Positions 23,586-35,331 of a DNA stretch of 64,000 bases are shown in pieces. The notes beneath the pieces were generated by a model. The model worked only from the letters and a program-made list of their open reading frames with translations. It was not told where the DNA came from and searched no databases. The DNA is taken from the NCBI RefSeq assembly GCF_026898095.1, contig NZ_CP114015.1, positions 1,240,001 through 1,304,000 of the forward strand. The letters run 5' to 3'. A program made the position numbers and the translations under genes. Source of the stretch: Arthrobacter sp. ATA002 (lineage in GTDB: Bacteria; Actinomycetota; Actinomycetes; Actinomycetales; Micrococcaceae). How positions within the stretch are numbered: position 1 is the first letter of the stretch; each line of letters opens with the position of its first letter.

Positions 23586-24181
23586 GTGGCTGGTCCTTCG
23601 GGTGGAGCGGGCCGCAGCCCGGCGAGGTACAGATCGGTCAGCTGGGTGGCGACCTGTTGTTTGGTCAACGGCCCGGAGGGCTGGTACCAGTACGACAGGT
23701 AGTGCGGGTTGGCAAAAAAATTGGCGACAAGGACGGCCGTGGGGATGTCGCTGCGGAAGCAGCCCTCTGCACGGCCGCGGTTGATCAGGGCGCCGAAGAC
23801 CTCGTTGTACCGGCGCCGCCGAACCTTGACGGCTTCCATCCGGTCGGGGCTGAGCATGTGCTGGGACCGGAAGAACACGGTGCCCTCGCGGATCCAGTCG
23901 ATCGAGGTGACAATGACGTCCTCGCAGACCAGGCGGACTGTCTCCTCCACCGGAAGGCCGCGGGCAGTGATCTCGTCAAGGTTGCGGTGCTGCAGGGTGA
24001 GGATCCGGTCATATATGTCGAACAGCAGGTCGTCCTTTGAATTGAAGTAGTGGTACAGGGCACCCTTGGTGACACCGGCGGCATCGACGATCTGCTGCAC
24101 GCTGGTCCGGGCGTAACCTTGGCTGGAAAAGAGCTCCACGGAAACGCGGGCCAGTTCTTCCTTGATGTTCATCGTCTTCAT
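23582..24181 (-). CDS. TetR-family transcriptional regulator
   Basis: 199-residue TetR-type repressor. The N-terminal HTH (about residues 10-55) contains FSSQGYARTSVQQIVDAAG and TKGALYHYFNSKDDLL, very close to KstR2/FadR-like acyl-CoA-responsive regulators. The C-terminal domain would bind the inducer, plausibly a CoA thioester. It is the first gene of the minus-strand operon and overlaps the quinone oxidoreductase gene by 4 nt. A 16-bp palindrome 64 nt upstream (24245-24260), plus a partial one near 24211-24220, suggests autorepression. Translation could also begin at the in-frame ATG 9 nt downstream. Confidence 0.9.
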   Translation of the reverse strand: MKTMNIKEELARVSVELFSSQGYARTSVQQIVDAAGVTKGALYHYFNSKDDLLFDIYDRILTLQHRNLDEITARGLPVEETVRLVCEDVIVTSIDWIREGTVFFRSQHMLSPDRMEAVKVRRRRYNEVFGALINRGRAEGCFRSDIPTAVLVANFFANPHYLSYWYQPSGPLTKQQVATQLTDLYLAGLRPAPPEGPAT

Positions 24182-24244
24182 GCGGTGTTCCGTGTTTCTC
24201 GTGTGGCTTGTACCGGTCGGGCCGCCGGGCCAGAGGCCACGGCG

Positions 24245-24260
24245 AGAACCGACCGGTTGG
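24245..24260. promoter_or_regulatory. TetR-type operator, copy C (upstream of tetR)
   Basis: AACCGACCGGTTGGTA is a near-perfect palindrome centred 71 nt upstream of the tetR start. A further half-like TACCGGTCGG lies at 24211-24220. With copies A and B it defines the consensus WACCGACCGGTCGGTA. Confidence 0.65.
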
Positions 24261-24468
24261 TATGTGGATCACCATACCGCCGGGGCACCCGTTATCCGCA
24301 AGGGTTTCGGCGAAAGATTTCCCGCGGCTTCCGGGAGTTCGGCGCCAGCCGCGGTCTCGCGGCCGCGCCGCCGTGTCACGGCGCCTTTCCGGCGGAGCGG
24401 GCTGGTAGCGTCCGTGGCAATCGGTGCCGAAGGCTGCCCCGGGGAAGATTTCTTTGACGGGGGAACCA

Positions 24469-25633
24469 ATGGCCGTGCGCCGATATGTCTTTCCAGTGCT
24501 GTGGCTGGCAATTTTCGCCGTGATTGCTTCGGCTCTCTTCAAACTCGCGTTCATCGACGGCATGAAAGCAGACGCCGCCGGGGGCGAACAGGCGGCCGCG
24601 CAGCTGTCCACTCCACTCGTTCCAGCTGTGCTGGGTACGGTAACCAACCTCGTGCAGGTTCAGGGTTCGGTGGTGGGTGATCCGGCGGTCATGGTCAAGA
24701 GCACCAGTGACGGAACCGTGGACTTCATCTATGTGCAGGCCGGCGACCAAGTTATCGCGGGTGCACCCCTGTTCCAGGTGAAGACTCCCGTGGAACCGGA
24801 AGCTCCGGCGGCGCCGGAGGAATCCTCAGGTGACGGCGGTTCCCCGGAACAGCCGCCCGCGGCCCCCGGGTTCCGGTATATGCCTACACGAACGTGCTCG
24901 CCACGGCCGACGGCACCGTGGCGCAGCTGTCGGTGCTTCCCAAACAGCAGGTCTCGGTCGGTGCCGACGTCGCGTCCCTGGATCCGGCACTTTTTCCGTT
25001 TCGGGAACCCTCACCGCGGACCAGCAGTTCCGCATCCTGGGCCGGGCGAACACCGCGGTGGTCACCGTCAACGGAGGTCCCGCTCCTTTCCCGTGCAGTG
25101 ATGTCACCATGGGCCGGACCCCGGCCGCGGACACGGGAATCAGCCCCCAGGCGCAGCAGGCCGGGCCCGGACAGCCGGCGCCGGAAGCTCCGGCGGCCGG
25201 CAGCGTCAGCTGCAGCATTCCCGCGGATGTCCCGGTCTTCGCCGGCCTCGGCGCGGCAATCGACATCACGGCGGGGCAGGCCGAGGGCGTCGTCACGGTG
25301 CCCACGACGGCGGTGCGCGGTGCGGTGCAGACCGGCATTGTCTGGGTCATGCCCGGCGGGGCGGCAGCACCGGAAGCCGCCGGTACGGACGGGCCGGCTG
25401 GCGGCGGTGCCGGTGGCGGTGGCGGTGCCGGTGACGGGGCCGCGGCGGGCCCGGGACTTGACGGCGGCGCGGGAGCGGCAGTGGAGCGCGAAGTGTCGCT
25501 GGGGCTGAACGACGGGCAGACCGTGGAGATTACCGCCGGACTGGCCGAAGGCGAAATGGTCCTGCAGTTTGTTCCCGGTGCCCCCTCGGTGGACGAACAG
25601 ATGGCCGGCATGCCCGGGGTGATGGGCGGATGA
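24469..25633 (+). CDS. MacA/HlyD-like efflux adaptor (frame broken twice)
   Basis: Membrane-fusion/adaptor-type protein preceding a MacB-like ATPase and permease. It has an N-terminal membrane anchor (residues about 5-25), a lipoyl-like half ([19 protein letters not shown], then [19 protein letters not shown]) and a beta-barrel part ([12 protein letters not shown]). The [18 protein letters not shown] segment is typical of periplasmic adaptors. A long Gly-rich linker near [14 protein letters not shown] is unusual. Two one-base breaks occur: at the C5/G3 run 24863-24870, and near CCGG 24984-24987. Restoring one base at each gives a continuous protein of about 388 residues. I start at ATG 24469 (MAVRRYVFP). 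The stop overlaps the ATPase start by ATGA. Confidence 0.78.
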
Positions 25634-26352
25634 GTTCCCGGACCCGGCTGCCCGGCAGCAGCCGCTGGCGGTGCTCTCGCAGGTCACCCGGGCAGTCAGC
25701 CTGCCGGACCGGGACACCCTGCACATCCTGTCCGGAGTGGACCTCACCGTGTACCCCGGAGACCACCTTTCCATCGTGGGCCGGTCCGGTTCGGGCAAGT
25801 CGACGCTGTTGAACATCCTGGGACTGCTGGATGTGCCCACCTCGGGAACCATGACCTTTGACGGATCCCCGGTGGAACGGATGAACGAGAAACGCCGCGC
25901 CGGGGCCCGGGCGCCGCTGTCGGTTTCATCTTCCAGCAGTTCAACCTGCTGGCGGAGCGCACGGCCCTGGAGAACGTCATGACCCCGCTGCTCTATGCGC
26001 GCGGAAAACAGTTCTGGCAGCGCGAGCGGCTCGCTGCCCGGATGCTGGAGCGGGTGGGGCTGGGCAGCCGGCTGCGGGACCGGCCCCAAAACTCTCCGGC
26101 GGGGAACAGCAGCGTGTGGCGATTGCACGTGCCCTGGTCCGCTCGCCGCGGCTCATCCTGGCGGACGAGCCGACCGGTGCCCTGGACATCGCCACCGGCC
26201 GGCACGTGATGGCTCTCCTGGCCGAGGTCGCCGCGGAGTCCGGCGCCGCACTGGTCACCATCACGCACGACCCCCAAGTGGCGGCCCTGGCACAGGAGCA
26301 CTTCCTGCTGCAGGACGGCCGGCTCGTGCCCGGAGCGGCGGTGGCGGCATGA
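25630..26352 (+). CDS. MacB/LolD-type ABC ATPase (frame broken three times)
   Basis: ATPase of about 241 residues that energises the following permease. Visible motifs, in three reading frames, are Walker [10 protein letters not shown]-loop FIFQQFNLL, signature [15 protein letters not shown], Walker [12 protein letters not shown] and TITHDPQVA. The breaks lie at CCC 25637-25639 (just after the start), near 25901-25913 (G/C runs), and at AAAA 26088-26091. In each case one added base joins the frames, for example [12 protein letters not shown] at the last. Three errors in one short gene between intact-looking motifs argue for sequencing faults. It overlaps both neighbours by ATGA. Confidence 0.85.
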
Positions 26353-27545
26353 GCCTCTCCGGGATCGCCGGCTCCCTGGTGGAGGCCTGGGCCGAGCTGC
26401 GCATCCACAAGACCCGGGTGCTGCTGGCCCTGATCGGAGTGGCCCTGTCAGTGGCCGCCCTGACCTCCGTGGTGGGGCTGGGCAACATGGTCCGCGAATC
26501 CATTGCCCAGGGCAGCGAGGTGCAGTCCGGCCGGCCGGCAACGCTGTCCGTCATGATGTACAGCAACGACGGAAGCGTCCCGGATCCGGCCGCCGCGGCC
26601 GCCGCCTACCGGGGCGTGGCCGAACGGTACTCCGTCACGTATTCGTCCCTGACCTCGCAGTCGAACGTTCCTTTCCAGCTTCCCGACGGCGTCGCGCAGG
26701 TGAACACCGTAGTGGTCGATCCGGACTACAAGGTCATGCGCCGGGTGCCCATGGTGGAGGGCGCCTGGTTTTCCGAGGCGGACGCCGGCCGCCTGGCTCC
26801 CGCCGTCGTCGTCAATGAAGCGCTGTATGACCGGATGGGAAACCCCAGCCTGGCCCTGGACCCGGTGCTGCCTATTTCCGGTGAACGGACGGTCAACGCC
26901 GTGGTGGTGGGGGTGAGCAGGGCACAGTACGAAGGGGAGTACCCCCAGGCGATGATGCTGTCCGAGTCGTACGACCGGCTGGGGCTGGGGGCGGCGGCAA
27001 ATTCGTACTTGGAACTGTGGGTTCCGGAGGAACTCAGCGACCCGCTGCAGGCTGCCGTTACCGCCGATTTGCAGGCACAGTTTCCCGGCATGCAGATTGA
27101 TGCCCACCGCACCGACTACGCCGCCTGGGGCGATCCGTTCGGCGGACTGCAGTGGGCGGTGGGCGGCATAGCGGCGCTGGTGATGCTGCTCGGTGCGGTG
27201 GGGCTGCTGAACATTTCCATGGTCACGGTCAAATACCGGGTGCGGGAAATCGGCATCCGCCGCAGCTTCGGAGCGACGTCGGGGCGCATCTTCTTCGGTG
27301 TGATGCTGGAATCGGTGGTGGCGACTTTCGCCGCCGGGGTGCTGGGGGTCATGGCCGCCGTCGCCGTCGTCAAACTTCCGGTCATCCAGCGTGCCGTGGC
27401 CGGCGGGGTTAGCGAGCTGCCGCCGTTTCCCGTCGAGGCCGCGCTGATCGGCCTGGCCGCCGCCACGGCGGTGGGGGCGCTGGCCGGGCTGATCCCGGCG
27501 CTGGTGGCGGTGCGGGTGAAGGTTATCGATGCGATCCGCTATTGA
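26349..27545 (+). CDS. MacB-like ABC transporter permease (FtsX domain)
   Basis: 398-residue permease. An N-terminal membrane helix (about 24-45; [20 protein letters not shown]) is followed by a large extracytoplasmic MacB-type periplasmic core (about 50-255). Three C-terminal helices form the FtsX domain with [15 protein letters not shown], the motif that contacts the ATPase. The preferred start ATG 26349 overlaps the ATPase stop. The set (adaptor, ATPase, permease) resembles MacAB-type mechanotransmission exporters; in Gram-positive bacteria these often handle antimicrobial peptides or lipids. No response regulator sits beside it. Confidence 0.9.
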
Positions 27546-27569
27546 GGCGGTAATCCGCTGTTGAACGCA

Positions 27570-27600
27570 GAAGAACCCCGCACCCGGTGCGGGGTTCTTC
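27570..27600. terminator. Terminator between MacB-like permease and tRNA-Arg
   Basis: A perfect 15-bp inverted repeat (GAAGAACCCCGCACC and GGTGCGGGGTTCTTC, one base between; the usable loop is a few bases wider) ends in TTCTTCTCTGTCTC. It can serve the plus-strand permease operon and, in reverse, the minus-strand tRNA. Confidence 0.85.
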
Positions 27601-27612
27601 TCTGTCTCAAAG

Positions 27613-27685
27613 TGCCCTCGATAGGATTCGAACCTACGGCCTGTTGCTCCGGAGGCAACCGCTCTATCCCCTGAGCTACGAGGGC
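27613..27685 (-). tRNA. tRNA-Arg (anticodon CCG)
   Basis: 73-nt tRNA on the minus strand. The acceptor stem is GCCCTCG/CGAGGGC with discriminator A, the D stem is GCTC/GAGC, and the anticodon stem is GTTGC/GCAAC around loop CTCCGGA, giving anticodon CCG. The T arm carries TTCGAAT. The 3' CCA is not encoded. It reads CGG codons, which are common in this GC-rich genome. Confidence 0.97.
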
Positions 27686-27784
27686 AAGGACACCGGTAAA
27701 CCGGCAGGTCCTGTGGGACTCAAGAAGCTTAGCAGGTCCGGCGCGCGGTGTGAAAACGTCCCCGGGAACCGGCCCCGCAAAACC

Positions 27785-29319
27785 TCAGTAGCCCAGGAAA
27801 GCGTCAGTCCGCACGGAGCGTCCGCCGGCACCGCGGACCGCCGTCCGTGCCGCGGCCACCGCGGCCGGCGATCCGGACACATAGGCGGCACGCTGCGCGG
27901 CGTCCGGCACTGCTGCGGCCAGGGCGTCAGCATCCGGCAGGCCGGGGCCCAGGTGTGTCCAGCCGCTGATCTGCGGATCGTCGGGGGTGCAGACCAGGAC
28001 GCGGATGCCCAGGCCGTGCAGCTCCGCGGCGTAGGCGAGCTCATCCACGGACGCGGCGGCGTAGATGAGCACGACGTCGCGGGTCACGGTGCCGCCGCTG
28101 CCCGCGGCGAGCGCGCGCAGCTGGCTCATGAACGGAGTGATGCCGACTCCGGATGCGATGAGGAGCAGCGGAACGGAGCGGTTGCGGGGGAGCAGGAAGT
28201 CGCCGGCCACGGACGTCGCGGACACCACGGCGCCGGGCTTCAGTTTCAGCAGGGCGGTCTTGAAGGAACTGGTTGGTTCAGCCGCGCGCAGGCCCACGGC
28301 CACGGTGCCGGAGTCTCCCGGGGCCGTGGTGAGGCTGAAGATCCGCCGCGTTCCGCGCGCGTCGGCGGTGGCGTGCGGCAGGCTCAGTTCCAGGTACTGG
28401 CCCGGCCGGAAGCGCAGCGGGCGCGCCGGCTCGAACACCAGCTCGCGCGCCGTGGGTGTCAGCGCCCGGTTCTCGCGCAGCCGCAGCCGGATCCGCTGCG
28501 CGGAGCCAGGGCGAAGGCCAGCAAATTGCCGGCCAGCAGGGCCAGCTCGGGCGACATGAACACCGGCCCGGCATTCAGCGGGACTGCGAACAGAACGCCG
28601 ACGACGGCGGCCTCCAGCAGCCGCTGCCAGTTCCGCGGGGGCAGGGTCAGCGGCTCGGACAGCATGAAGCCGGCGAAGAACAGCACCGGATAGGAAGCGA
28701 AGAAGGTGCCCAGCGCGGCCGGAAGGGGTTCACCGGCCAGGACCATCCGAACGGTGATAATGACGCCGGCCGCCAGCAGGAAGACCCCGGCCATCGGCAG
28801 CAGCCGGTTCCGGTACAGGATGATGGCCGCCGCCGGGAGCACTGCCACCAGCATCAGCGGTGCCGCCACCCACCACACGGCGGCCCCGAGGCCGGTCAGG
28901 GCCAGTACGGCTGCTCCCAGGGCTGCGGGATTAAAGATGTGCCGGCCGCGCCAGACCAGGACGTACTTTGACGCTGTTGCGGCACCGGCAGCCAGCGCCA
29001 CGGTCAGCAGGGACGAGCCCTCGGTGCTGGGCCACAGCAGGAAGTAGAGCAGCAGCCCGGTAATCAGCGAGGAATCCGTCTGCGGCCGGGTACGGAAAAG
29101 CAGCCCCATGACGCGGCTGGCCACCAGGGCGGAGACGACGGCGGTGGCCGCGGTCGCGGCCAGCTCGGCCGGGGTGTAGGCCAGCGCTCCGGCGAAGGAG
29201 AGCAAAAAGGACCAGGCCGTCACGGCCAGCAGCAGGAACACCGTCAGCCGGTACATCGTCCAGCGGCCGGTGAAGGCATCGAGCCGGCCGGCAACCGGCG
29301 CGGGCAGGGAAAGGCTCAT
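27785..29319 (-). CDS. RnfD/NqrB-like membrane protein fused to ferredoxin-reductase domain (frame broken once)
   Basis: Predicted single polypeptide of about 512 residues. The N-terminal half has eight or more membrane helices. RGRHIFNPAALGA matches the NIFNPA-type motif of RnfD/NqrB, and DSSLITGLLLYFLLWP is a related segment. The C-terminal half is an FNR-type flavoenzyme: FRPGQYLELSLPH, the FAD motif RRIFSLTTAP, and the nucleotide motif ASGVGITPFMSQLRAL. The two halves are in different frames. One added base near plus-strand 28499-28504 joins LAFALAP to QRIRLRLRENRAL without a gap. It would carry electrons from cytosolic NAD(P)H across the membrane to the flavinylated lipoprotein encoded upstream. 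Its start overlaps the apbE stop by 4 nt. Confidence 0.82.
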
Positions 29320-30181
29320 GAAAACAGAACTCCAGCCATGGCATCTGAGAAGGTCGCCCGGCCGTCCGAGAACATCCGCACATAGTCAAAGGCGAACTCC
29401 TCGGCGAGCCGGGCAGGATCGGTAAAGAATAAAGCAGTGGCCAGTCCGTCGGCGGTCATGGCATCGGCGGCCAGCGCCCAGGTGGCGGCGACCTTGCTCA
29501 CAGGTTTTCCGGTGGCAGCATCAAGAATGTGGTGCAGCCCCTCGCCCCAGGCCCTCCGGTTCCCGGCCGAAGCACACAGGGCGCGGTCCCGCAGGGACAC
29601 GATGCCAATGGCGCGGGCCGTATCGTAGGGATGCTCCAGGCCCACCCGCAGCCCGGTGCCGCCCGCGTGCCGCAGGTCGGAACCGGCGTCGACGGTGAGG
29701 TTCCGGTGCCCTGCGGACTGCAGCAGCCCAAAGACCAGGTCCACGAGCTGGCCCTTCCGGCGGCGCCGATGTCCAGGGTGACCGGCACCGTGGTGCTCAG
29801 CTGCACGCTTTCCCCGGCGGTCCGCCAGGAAACGGCGGCCGCCCAGTCGGGGGCGGGCGCCGGACCGGAACCGGCAAAGGAATATGCGGCGTCGTAGCCC
29901 AGCTTTTCCAGGGAGGATCCCACCAGCGGATTGACCGTCCCGCCGGAAAGGCGGTGCAGGCGGTCGAACAGCGTGAGCAGGGGCGCGGCCGAGGACGGCA
30001 GTTCCACGGTTCCGGGCGACCGGGTCAGTGTGGCGATGACGGAATCGGAACGGAACCGCGAATAGATGCGGTCATAGTCCGCCACCAGGTCCGCCACGGC
30101 GGCCCGGAGCGGTGCCGTGAGCGGAACAGCTGTGGTGATGGTCCACGCAGTGCCGATGGCATCGAATTCCAGGTCCGGCAT
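29316..30181 (-). CDS. apbE: FAD:protein FMN transferase (ApbE family; frame broken once)
   Basis: Flavin transferase that attaches FMN covalently to Thr of target proteins, using FAD. About 289 residues once repaired. The N-terminal part has the family opening IGTAWTITTAVPL and YSRFRSDSVIATL. The C-terminal part has HHILDAATGKPVSKVAAT and AADAMTADGLATALFF, the conserved FAD/Mg-binding region. The break is at CCGG 29757-29760; adding one base produces DIGAAGKGQLVDLVFG, the normal ApbE sequence. It lies 10 nt after the gene for its probable substrate, the FMN-binding lipoprotein, and overlaps the RnfD-like fusion gene. It is shorter than exported ApbE proteins and has no clear signal peptide, so it may act in the cytoplasm or use a non-standard export route. 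Confidence 0.87.
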
Positions 30182-30191
30182 GGCGGCAGGG

Positions 30192-30659
30192 TCAGCTGGC
30201 GGCTTCGGCCCGGATGGTGTCCAGGGCCTTGTTGAAGCCGGCGCTGGTAAGGGAAGAACCGCCCACCTTGTCCACGTCGAGCTCGTCGAGGTTCCTGCCG
30301 ACCACCTGGTCCTGCACCTTGGACGTGAAATCGCGCTGGTGCATCTTCGATGTGGGGTGGTTGCCGGAGGTGGTGACCTCCAGCTCCGTCACCACGCTGC
30401 CCTCGAGGGTCAGGGTGACATCGACGTCCTCGGTCTGGTTCGACGGCGGCGTGTAGCTGCCGGAGGCGGAGTACTCGCCGTCGGCGTAACTGCCGGCCGG
30501 TGCGGCGTTTTGGGGTGCTGCGCTCTGCGGTGCGGCAGGGGAAGCGGGCGCGGGATCCTGGGCGGCGGGCGCCTCATCGGCTGCCGGCCCGGCGCATGCG
30601 GTGGAAGCCAGGATCAGGGACGCAGCGGTGAACAGAAGTGTCTTGCGGGTGTGGTTCAT
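30192..30659 (-). CDS. FMN-binding domain lipoprotein (NqrC/RnfG-like)
   Basis: 155-residue protein with a lipoprotein-type signal (SLILASTAC, Cys22) and a Pro/Ala/Gln-rich linker to about residue 56. An FMN-binding domain follows. The C-terminal VGGSSLTSAGF (132-142) corresponds to the [S/T]GAxxT[S/T] flavinylation motif of NqrC/RnfG, with Thr138 the predicted FMN attachment residue. GNHPTSKMHQRDF is also typical of the small FMN-binding family. ApbE, encoded directly downstream, would flavinylate it. It is predicted to sit on the outer face of the membrane and take electrons from the RnfD-like fusion. Confidence 0.88.
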   Translation of the reverse strand: MNHTRKTLLFTAASLILASTACAGPAADEAPAAQDPAPASPAAPQSAAPQNAAPAGSYADGEYSASGSYTPPSNQTEDVDVTLTLEGSVVTELEVTTSGNHPTSKMHQRDFTSKVQDQVVGRNLDELDVDKVGGSSLTSAGFNKALDTIRAEAAS

Positions 30660-30899
30660 TTTTCTCCTGAAGGTGGGGCAGCAGGCAGGCGGGCAGCAGG
30701 CAAGCGGGCCGGGTGCCCATATCCATTAGAACGTATCCGGATGAACCGTGCCTGTGCACGCCCTGTTGGCTTGGTCTCTCCGGGGAAGTGCCGGGAGATA
30801 CGGGGAGGCGCCGGGGAAGCGCGGGGCAGGGTCCGGAGCTGCTGCGGCGAACCGCCCGGGGCAGCGTCACAGTTCGCGGACCGGTGCCTGAGTCGAGGC

Positions 30900-30912
30900 T
30901 ATGCTTAACCGG
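30900..30912 (+). promoter_or_regulatory. Promoter for leaderless argS mRNA
   Basis: TATGCT (30900-30905) is a good -10 element and ends 6 nt before the G of the GTG start. No ribosome binding site lies upstream of that GTG. This spacing is typical of leaderless actinobacterial transcripts. Confidence 0.6.
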
Positions 30913-32561
30913 TGACTCCCGAAGAACTTTCCTCCGCCGTAACTGCCTGCCTCCAAGACGCCATCGATGCCGGTGACTTCAGCATCGACGTCCCCCGGGA
31001 GGTGCGCGTGGAGCGGCCGAAGAACCGCGACCACGGCGACTGGGCCACCAACATTGCCCTGCAGCTCTCCAAGCAGGCCGGAATGAACCCCCGCCAGTTC
31101 GCGGAAATCCTCAAGGGACGCCTCGAAAAGATCGACGGCGTGGCCAAGGTGGACATTGCCGGACCCGGTTTCCTGAACATCACCCTCGACGCCGGTGCCG
31201 CCGGTGAGCTGGTCAAGACCATCGTGGATGCCGGCGGGTCCTACGGCACCTCGGAAATCCTCAAAGGCACCCGGATCAACCTCGAGTTCGTCTCGGCCAA
31301 CCCCACCGGTCCCATCCACCTGGGCGGAACCCGCTGGGCCGCCGTCGGCGACGCCCTGGCCCGGATCTTCTCGTCGCAGGGCGCTGAAGTCACCCGCGAG
31401 TACTACTTCAATGACCACGGTGCGCAGATTGACCGCTTCGCCCGGTCGCTGCTGGCCTCGGCCAAGGGCGAACCGGCTCCCGAAGACGGCTACGCCGGCG
31501 GCTACATCGAGGACATCGCGAACCGCATCCTGGCCGCCGAACCGAACATCATGGAACTGCCCGACGCCGAAGCGCAGGAGCACTTCCGGGCGGCCGGCGT
31601 CGACTTTATGTTTGCCGACATCAAGGAGTCCCTGCACAACTTCGGCGTGGACTTCGACGTCTTCTTCCATGAGGATTCCCTGCACGAAAACGGGCAGGTG
31701 GACAAGCTCCTGGAACAGCTCAAGGGCTCCGGGAACCTGTACGAGAAGGACGGCGCGTGGTGGCTGAACTCCTCCGAGTTCGGCGATGACAAGGACCGCG
31801 TGGTCATCAAGTCCGATGGGAACGCCGCCTACATTGCCGGCGACATCGCCTACATCCAGAACAAGCGCGACCGCGGCTTCGACTTGAACTTCTACATGCT
31901 CGGCGCCGACCACCACGGCTACGTGGCCCGGCTCAAGGCCGCTGCCGCCGCCCTGGGCCACGACCCGGAGTGCGTGGAGGTGCTGATCGGCCAGATGGTG
32001 AACCTGGTCAAGGACGGCAAGCCCGTGCGCATGTCCAAGCGCAACGGCACCGTGGTCACCCTCGAGGACCTGGTGGAAGCCGTGGGCGTGGATGCCGCCC
32101 GCTACACGCTGGCCCGCTTCTCCGCCGACTCCAACATCGACATCGACCTGGACCTGCTGACCAAGCGCAGCAACGAGAACCCGGTGTTCTATGTCCAGTA
32201 CGCGCACGCCCGCACCTACGCTCTGGCCCGCAACGCCGAAGCGGCCGGCGTGGACGATTCAGCCTTTGACGCCTCGCTGCTGACGCACCCCACCGAAGGT
32301 GAACTGCTGGCCGCGCTGGGACAGTATCCCGGCGTCGTCGCGCAGGCCAGCGCCTTCCGCGAACCGCACCGCGTGGCCCGCCACCTGGAAGTTATCGCCG
32401 GAACGTACCACCGCTGGTACGACGCCTGCCGGATCGCGCCCCAGGGCGACGAGGAAATCACCGATGTGAACCGCACCCGCCTGTGGCTGAACCTTGCCAC
32501 CCGCCAGGTCCTGGCCAACGGCCTGGGCCTGCTGGGAGTTTCCGCTCCGGAACGGATGTAA
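30912..32561 (+). CDS. argS: Arginyl-tRNA synthetase
   Basis: 549-residue class I synthetase that charges tRNA-Arg. The HIGH-type motif is [13 protein letters not shown] (about residues 131-143) and the KMSKS-type motif is RMSKRNGT. An N-terminal Add1 domain (residues about 1-110) and a C-terminal DALR anticodon-binding domain ([13 protein letters not shown]) complete it. The frame is intact. The GTG start is probably leaderless. It begins the argS-lysA-hom-thrC-thrB array; argS next to lysA is a known actinobacterial arrangement. Confidence 0.96.
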
Positions 32562-32564
32562 CCG

Positions 32565-34023
32565 ATGACTGTTTCCCCCCTCGCACCCGGCTGGCTGAGC
32601 CATCCGGGGGACGTGAATGCCCTGCGGCCGCAAATGTGGGCGCGCGACGTCAGCCGCAGCGTGAACGGCGAACTGGAAGTGGCCGGTGTGCCCGTCTCGT
32701 CCCTTGCCGCGGAATTCGGCACGCCGCTGTTCGTGGTGTCCGAAGCGGATTTCCGCGCCCGTGCCCGGGACTTCAAGGACTCCTTCGATGCGGCTTTTGC
32801 CGACCTGTGCGGGGAGTGGATGTCTACTATGCCGGCAAGGCGTTCCTCTGCACCGCGGTGGCCCGCTGGGTGCGTGAAGAGGGGCTGCGCCTGGACACCT
32901 GCTCCGGCGGGGAACTGGCCGTGGCCCGCCGCGCCGGGATCCCCGGTGCCTACCTCGGCCTGCACGGCAACAACAAGTCCGACGCCGAGCTGACCCGCGC
33001 ACTGGACATGGGCCTGGGCCGGATCGTGGTGGACAGCATGGCCGAGCTGCACCGCCTGGACGCCCTTGCGGTCTCCCGCGGCGAGCAGGCGAACGTGATG
33101 CTCCGGCTGACCCCGGGCGTGCACGCGTCCACCCATGAGTTCATTGCCACCGCGCATGAGGATCAGAAGTTCGGCCTCTCCATGGCTCCGGATCCGGCGG
33201 CCGGCGGCGAATCTCCGGCAGCTGCGGCTGTGGCCGCAGCACTGGCAGCCAGGGTATCCGGCTGCTCGGCCTGCACTGCCATATCGGCTCGCAGATCTTT
33301 GAGCCGGAGGGCTTTGAACTGGCGGCCAAACGGCTGCTGGGCTTCCTGGCGGACATCAAGGCGGAGCATGGTGTCGAACTGCCGGAGCTGGACCTCGGCG
33401 GCGGTTACGGCATTGCCTACACCGAAGCCGACACTCCGCGTCCGCCGGCGGAAATCGCGCAGGCGATGGCCGCCGTCGTCGGCTCCACCTGCACGGAGCT
33501 GGGACTGGCCGTGCCGAGGATCTCGATCGAGCCCGGCCGTGCCATTGTTGGCCCCACCACGTTCACCCTGTACCGCGCGGGCACCGTCAAGACGGTGCGC
33601 GTGGACACGGCTGACGGCGGCACGGCCGAACGCCGGTACGTATCAGTGGACGGCGGCATGAGTGACAACGCCCGTCCGGTGCTCTACGACGCCGACTACT
33701 CCGCCGTGCTTGCCTCCCGCAAGTCCGAAGATGACGCCGTTTTGTCACGCGTAGTTGGCAAACACTGCGAGAGCGGGGACATAGTGGTGCGGGACGTCTA
33801 TCTTCCGGCCGACACCGGCGACGGTGACCTGCTGGCGGTTCCCGGGACGGGCGCGTACTGCTGGGCGTTGTCCAGTAACTACAACTACATTGCCCGTCCG
33901 CCCGTGGTGGCCGTGCTGGACGGCACCGCCCGGCTGATTATCCGCGGTGAAACCGAAGAAGACCTGTTGGCCCGGGACGTTGACGCGGCAAGCGCACGTC
34001 CGCCCGAACCGCTGAAGGAGTAG
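32565..34023 (+). CDS. lysA: Diaminopimelate decarboxylase (frame broken twice)
   Basis: PLP enzyme that converts meso-diaminopimelate to lysine; about 486 residues when repaired. Motifs appear in order but in three frames: VDVYYAGKAFLC (PLP Lys), GLHCHIGSQIFE, LDLGGGYGIAYTE, SIEPGRAIVG and SVDGGMSDNARPVLYDADY. Breaks are at GGGG 32811-32814 (CGG-VDVYYAG restored by one G) and CC 33249-33250 (LAA-QGIRLLGLH restored by one C). It starts 3 nt after the argS stop. The enzyme is essential for lysine synthesis, so true loss is unlikely. Confidence 0.92.
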
Positions 34024-34032
34024 GCACGCACG

Positions 34033-35331
34033 ATGAAGACCCTCAAAGTTGCCCTGTTGGGCTGCGGAAACGTTGGCTCCCAGGTGGCCCGGATACTCCT
34101 GGACGACGCGGAGGACCTCGCCGCACGCACTGGTGCCCGGCTGGAACTGACGGGCATTGCGGTCCGGAACCCGGAGGCACCCCGCGACGTGGACCTGCCG
34201 CGGGACCTGTTCACCACCGACGCCGAAAAGCTGGTGGAGGACGCCGACATCGTCATTGAACTGATGGGCGGCATGGAGCCTGCCCGCACGCTGATGCTGC
34301 ACGCGATCGGCCACGGGGCCTCCGTGGTCACCGGAAACAAGGCGCTGCTTGCCGCGGACGGCGCCGCAATGTTTGAAAAGGCCGACGCCGCGGGGGTCCG
34401 GCTGGCCTATGAAGCCGCCGTGGCCGGCGCCATTCCGATCCTGCGTCCCATCCGCGACAGCCTCTCCGGAGACCGCATCACCCGCGTGCTGGGCATCGTC
34501 AACGGCACCACCAACTACATCCTGGACGCCATGGACAGCACCGGCGCGCAGTTCGCCGACGCCTTGGCCGACGCCCAGCGCCTCGGATACGCCGAAGCCG
34601 ACCCCACCGCCGACGTCGAAGGCCACGACGCGGCAGCCAAGGGCGCCATCCTCGCCTCGCTCGCCTTCCACACCAACTTTGACCTCGCGAACGTGTCCTG
34701 CGAGGGCATCTCCTCCGTCACTGCCGATGACATTGCGGCGGCAAAGGACGCCGGCTTTGTGATCAAGCTGCTGGCGATCGCGGAGAAGCTGGAGAACGAC
34801 GGCGAACCCGGCGTCAGCGTCCGCGTGCATCCCACGCTGCTGCCCCGCACCCACCCGCTGGCCGCCGTGCACGGTGCCTTCAACGCGGTGTTCGTGGAAG
34901 CTGAAAACGCCGGCGAGCTCATGTTCTACGGCCAGGGCGCCGGCGGCGCTCCCACCGCGTCGGCCGTGATGGGCGACGTCGTGTCCACCGCCCGGCGGCT
35001 GGTCCTGGGCGGTCCGCTCGGGGCTGAGACACCCACCGGGTCGGTGCCGGCGCTGCCGTTCGAGAAGGTCACCACCAGCTACAGCATCGGCCTGCAGGTC
35101 ACCGACCAGCCCGGTGTCCTGGCCGCAGTGGCCCGGGTCTTCGCCGAACACGGCGTCTCCATCGAAACCATGCGCCAGACCATCCACGCCGGCGGCACAT
35201 CTTCGTCGGCCGAACTGCGCTTCGTGACACACCGTGCCTCCGAAGCTGCGCTGGCCGCCACCGTCGAGGCCATCAAGGGCCTGGACATCATCAATTCAGT
35301 CACATCCGTCCTGCGGGTAGAAGGGGTCCAA
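34033..35331 (+). CDS. hom: Homoserine dehydrogenase (stop codon apparently lost to one-base error)
   Basis: Converts aspartate semialdehyde to homoserine. About 433 residues: the NAD(P)-binding [10 protein letters not shown], the catalytic region [29 protein letters not shown], and a C-terminal ACT domain ([20 protein letters not shown]), the site of threonine feedback control. As sequenced, the frame reads through into the thrC gene in another phase to 35847, with an Arg/His-rich tail that is plainly non-coding. One A added at 35332-35334 would turn TAC into TAA directly after the VLRVEGVQ ending, which is where the family ends. I therefore give 35331 as the natural end. Confidence 0.9.

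Follow-up and report, generated by a model that had tools for sequence, protein, structure and literature searches.

An NQR/RNF-like flavinylation operon of an Arthrobacter-type genome and its ApbE, which looks cytosolic

Operon layout and relation to known systems

The window, the whole stretch of 64,000 nucleotides analyzed here, carries a three-gene flavinylation operon on its minus strand, in the order lipoprotein gene, apbE and a gene fusing a membrane domain to an FNR-type reductase. The locus raises the question of whether this compact set is a new kind of electron transfer system, on which side of the membrane its flavin is attached and by what route its electrons would travel. The first gene (30192..30659) encodes an FMN_bind (NqrC/RnfG-like) lipoprotein of 155 aa with Cys22 behind a hydrophobic signal, and the second (29316..30181) encodes the FAD:protein FMN transferase ApbE. 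The fusion gene as a whole spans 29319-27785 and encodes an N-terminal RnfD/NqrB-like membrane domain (28459..29319) and a C-terminal FNR-type FAD/NAD(P)H reductase domain (27785..28490), for which the annotated ORF covers 27785-28438 and coding extends to a break near 28,490. With a gap of 10 bases between the lipoprotein stop and the apbE start, and a 4-base overlap of the fusion ATG with the apbE stop, the genes are coupled. A promoter scan found no promoter, and three terminator-like sites, against 1.7 expected, carry no weight in this reading.

Pfam searches of the window pieces detected ApbE (PF02424) above its cut-off on either side of a frame break near 29,750 (1.1e-21 and 9.8e-09) and PF00175 in the FNR part (3.8e-06; 28 bits versus a cut-off of 22). 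FMN_bind reached 6.6e-04 and 20.7 bits in the window lipoprotein, below the cut-off of 22, and 22.2 bits in a genome search in which frame neighbors were included; the AlphaFold model of this protein matches a covalent-FMN domain. Neither the window protein nor the genome gave a Pfam RnfD/NqrB match (PF03116) for the membrane part. Its relationship to RnfD is drawn from the relatives, of which 25 of 59 reach PF03116 at E 0.01 and 34 fail, from a profile comparison in which RnfD was matched weakly (E 0.009) and from the fold, as the AlphaFold model of the fusion matches RnfD and an NqrF-type reductase. The positions and protein identities of the original prediction were borne out by these analyses.

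The genome is an Arthrobacter-type contig of 3.90 Mb with a single apbE (PF02424 search) and a single FMN_bind gene (profile search). The predicted lack of an Rnf or Nqr partner holds genome-wide, with no match to PF02508 (RnfA/E-NqrD/E) at E 0.01 in the 3.90 Mb, which are 94.24% complete. No ferric-reductase-like protein of this genome was over the cut-off (best, 20.1 of 28 bits). The flanking genes tested (argS, a C-terminal piece of lysA, tRNA-Arg, a MacB/FtsX permease, an ABC ATPase piece and a TetR regulator) are housekeeping or unrelated and gave no clue to the acceptor. Clustering of neighborhood ORFs in 79 external loci, obtained by a genome scan and drawn from the best 80 of 201 confirmed places, was likewise uninformative as to the acceptor; argS, lysA and other flanking genes were common to close relatives only. 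The gene order and domain make-up of the operon were repeated in these loci from the best 80 of 201. Among 120 genomes of the family searched, ApbE was present in 54, including all 28 that have the membrane domain. A search for the annotated starts in plasmids gave one weak record, without annotation.

The operon is a member of the known NQR/RNF-like flavinylation systems, not a new kind. As far as the available parts of the two papers describe it, the compact form was defined in 2021 (Meheust 2021; PMC8238504) with the same fusion, and one such system was modeled in 2024 (Huang 2024; PMC10979944), with a non-covalent flavin proposed. The 2021 text available gives 127 clusters in 127 genomes, mainly of Actinobacteria and CPR, six of them with a VIT1 iron transporter. 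In common with the systems as described there, the window operon has an NqrB/RnfD-like membrane domain that is probably fused to PF00175, an FMN_bind partner and apbE, comes from Actinobacteria and has a membrane subunit without the covalent-flavin Thr. An FMN-binding or ApbE gene nearby, at least one of them with a signal peptide or lipidation site, also belongs to that description and is found here as the Cys22 lipoprotein and apbE. Unlike in the definition given in that text, the membrane domain of the window lies below PF03116 detection. Because 34 of 59 relatives fail PF03116 and the scan confirmed 201 places, 127 clusters is probably an undercount. We found no experiment on any member in the open-access literature searched.

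Several related systems differ from this one. In comparison with the Rnf and Nqr complexes (RnfD/RnfG and NqrB/NqrC/NqrF), the window genome lacks RnfA/E-NqrD/E and the reductase is probably fused, in a chain without a ferredoxin domain. SaFMN3 of Streptomyces azureus (8p2a; PMC10339131) has three FMN domains, whereas the window lipoprotein has one. The MsrQ-like systems of Actinobacteria, in the published part available, likewise combine apbE with a membrane protein that often carries PF00175, but that membrane domain is ferric-reductase-like, not RnfD-like, and no such protein was over the cut-off in the window genome.

An identical three-gene layout was observed in L078, a Candidatus Saccharibacteria MAG (CPR). 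A membrane anchor replaces the lipobox Cys of its FMN_bind protein, and its ApbE is without a hydrophobic N terminus.

Flavin acceptor and topology of ApbE

The original prediction placed the flavin on Thr138 of the lipoprotein. The candidate acceptor segment reads D130-K-V-G-G-S-S136-L-T-S, and alignment to a solved FMN domain together with the D-x-x-[S/T]-G-A-[S/T] rule points instead to Ser136 as the probable acceptor. The motif is GGSS here, compared with SGAT in SaFMN3 (PMC10339131).

Export of the lipoprotein was examined in the partners from the best 80 of 201 places. A parse requiring a start, a hydrophobic signal with a hydropathy of at least 1.5 and a lipobox Cys succeeded for 75 of 78; it failed for L033, which lacks the core motif, for L056, which has no start, and for L078, which has a membrane anchor and no Cys. 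A loose lipobox pattern alone was matched by 74 of 76 family lipoproteins from the same best 80 of 201. Among the 75 parsed signals of this set, the n-region had Arg-Arg in 6 and Arg-Lys in 48, and a looser scan flagged 8 of 76 lipoproteins (best 80 of 201). The rarity of Arg-Arg (6/75) in this sample counts against Tat export, and the signals suggest export via Sec, or via Tat with a relaxed motif. The Saccharibacteria locus L078 was considered as a proof of Sec export, in the hope of a genome without TatC, and was rejected: TatC is present in the L078 genome, as it is in the window genome and in that of L003.

The window ApbE has neither a signal peptide nor an N-terminal membrane helix, and its stop-to-stop reading contains no hydrophobic stretch upstream of MPDLEFDAIGTAW. 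Family ApbEs begin 0 to 37 residues ahead of the conserved core F-x-x-I-G-T-x-W. With a 12-residue hydropathy window, a mean of at least 1.7 and up to 110 codons scanned upstream, a membrane-targeting stretch was found in none of the 78 readable family ApbEs from the best 80 of 201 places (maximum, 0.84; the ApbE of L038 was unreadable and is outside the 78). A hydrophobic N terminus was also missing from all 79 readable ApbEs of the window's family and class (80 loci sampled, 14 with an RnfD-like gene; L112-L171 and L189-L208). The same measure detected a hydrophobic stretch in 20 of 23 readable ApbEs from other classes of the phylum (30 loci, L082-L111); a looser rule gave 26 of 30, and the stricter count is used here. 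The sample is not random, as it consists of the top-scoring loci and a further 20 picked from the list.

The ApbE of this family thus looks as if it is cytosolic and works before export of the lipoprotein, and a role of ApbE outside the cytosol finds no support in the window protein or its relatives. If so, the lipoprotein would be flavinylated before export and from the cytosolic FAD pool. The textbook alternative is that ApbE is exported without a recognizable signal and flavinylates the lipoprotein after export. Well-studied ApbEs do function in the periplasm or outside, and in Salmonella, according to the part of the source available, a cytosolic form of ApbE could not substitute for the periplasmic one. 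We nevertheless regard action outside as unlikely in view of a hydrophobic N terminus in 0/78 family ApbEs (best 80 of 201) and 0/79 class ApbEs, set against 20/23 from other classes.

The mismatch between a signal-less ApbE and an exported lipoprotein looks unreported: no statement of it was found in the open-access literature searched, within main text as far as available, figures and supplements aside. A 2025 ApbE review, in the portion available, pairs ApbEs of the cytosol only with targets that are themselves cytosolic. Exported FAD is described as a requirement of extracytosolic ApbEs (PMC9973259), and the source of extracytosolic FAD for ApbE is treated as an open issue (PMC5655446). 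As the available text of Meheust 2021 (PMC8238504) has it, clusters were kept if any target gene had a signal, and signal-less ApbEs would therefore not stand out in that survey.

Other actinomycete apbE loci were also considered. In 33 of 66 apbE loci of the class that lack the RnfD fusion (L112-L126, L128, L142-L171 and L189-L208), a small exported-looking ORF with a flavinylation-like C-terminal tag lies directly upstream of apbE (for example, L114:1194-1469, L154:2400-2918 and L189:3315-3593). The tag was defined as a chain ending in [S/T]G[A/G]S or [S/T]SGS (TGAS, TGGS, SGGS or SSGS), a pattern written after examples had been seen, so that the counts are descriptive: 33 of 54 exported-like ORFs directly upstream of apbE carried it, versus 1 of 150 elsewhere on the same strand, 0 of 128 on the opposite strand and 1 of 616 at RnfD-family loci. 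None of eight tag proteins tested had a Pfam family over the cut-off. Flavin tags perform best at chain ends. The profile of the family lipoprotein had no match in 46 non-RnfD loci (L112-L126, L128 and L142-L171), which indicates that their substrates differ, and these tag proteins without an FMN_bind domain may possibly be a new class of ApbE substrate. At L183 the gene that follows is ferric-reductase-like (40.8 bits); the corresponding score at L186, 26.6, is under the cut-off.

For the Actinomycetes, which we take to be the class of the window organism, we tentatively suggest, at somewhat short of even confidence, that a cytosolic ApbE flavinylates lipoproteins or C-terminal tags, which would then be exported with the flavin attached and mostly without a twin-arginine signal.

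Frame breaks in the window copy

The window copy contains a break near 28,500, which splits the RnfD-like/FNR fusion, and a second one near 29,750, absent from the original prediction, which splits apbE. The proposal that the RnfD-like and FNR parts form one chain stood in the external loci from the best 80 of 201, where they are one ORF in 77 of 79 (split in L036 and L065; a single but short ORF in L033); the window copy itself is frame-broken. In the same set from the best 80 of 201, apbE is whole in 78 of 79, L055 being the exception. The operon is intact in the nearest relative, L003 (A. gandavensis JCM 13316), and by comparison with it both breaks are one-base shortfalls inside short single-base runs.

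Both breaks are most simply explained as errors of sequencing or assembly. If they were true mutations, the window strain would carry a pseudo-operon, and the locus, broken twice in its own copy, may be dead; that two of the three genes are hit and that the nearest relative is intact speak for this. We consider it improbable, given that each break is a single missing base in a short homopolymer, and given the same type of break in other window genes (24000-34500: lysA and ABC ATPase) and an assembly completeness of 94.24%, compared with 99-100% in most relatives. The split pieces of the fusion also remain 93% (residues 1-276) and 85% (residues 295-515) identical to the L003 protein.

Frame breaks in genes as ordinary as lysA and the ABC ATPase, a piece of which spans only profile positions 1-54 of 137, suggest a problem with base runs in the assembly.

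Electron path and biological meaning

The gene content, order and coupling, the homology and folds, the conserved acceptor serine and the lack of an ApbE export signal were the observed basis for a reading of function, from which we infer the direction of flow, the cofactor path and the acceptor. Very probably, this NQR/RNF-like operon moves electrons from NAD(P)H to the outside, as originally predicted and as remains the natural reading. The FAD of the C-terminal FNR domain, in the cytosol, would be reduced by NAD(P)H, and electrons would then cross the membrane via the RnfD-like domain, probably by a non-covalent flavin, and arrive at the FMN bound to Ser136 of the lipoprotein on the outer face, which would hand them to a small external oxidant. 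The FMN would be loaded by the ApbE encoded between the lipoprotein and the fusion.

The membrane domain was compared among 59 fusion proteins (set A1). The loop of RnfD between residues 143 and 220 (8ahx_D) is reduced to about 6 residues in the window family, so that, by comparison with the Rnf and Nqr complexes, the flavin-bearing RnfD loop is missing. The covalent-flavin Thr of NqrB/RnfD is not conserved; the residue that comes closest, position 153, varies among the 59 (47 Thr, 9 Ala and 3 Ser), and the window protein has Ala there. H127 is the sole invariant His of the domain (59/59), H80 being present in 46/59, and no Cys is invariant (best, 39/59). Neither a bis-His heme nor an Fe-S cluster is therefore indicated. 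As there is no conserved heme-ligand pair, set of Fe-S cysteines or covalent-flavin Thr, our best guess for the carrier is a non-covalent flavin, as suggested in the available part of Huang 2024.

At the other end of the chain, 58 of the 59 fusion proteins terminate in Gly-Tyr. This ending is similar to that of plant-type FNR, where a C-terminal Tyr tunes nicotinamide binding.

Inward flow, from an external donor oxidized by the lipoprotein to NAD(P)+ reduced at the FNR domain, is very improbable. A reversal is conceivable in principle (Meheust 2021, in the part available; PMC8238504), but the reductase domain belongs to the NAD(P)H-oxidizing flavohemoprotein/NqrF type and has no ion-pumping subunit partner (PF02508) to power uphill NAD+ reduction. 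For the outward path from NAD(P)H, ferric iron, free or as a chelate, is our best but doubtful guess at the external oxidant.

The operon is otherwise an ordinary, well-conserved member of its family, and what this analysis adds is the corrected flavin site and the unusual topology of ApbE. It extends a predicted redox system by a well-conserved branch of Arthrobacter type and shows that many members escape the published Pfam rule. Cytosolic flavinylation would answer how ApbE obtains its FAD; an FAD exporter would be superfluous, and if actinomycete ApbEs are cytosolic, the whole class would sidestep the need for exported FAD. The flavinylated chain would then leave through Sec or a relaxed form of Tat, and the export machinery would have to accept a chain bearing a bulky flavin.
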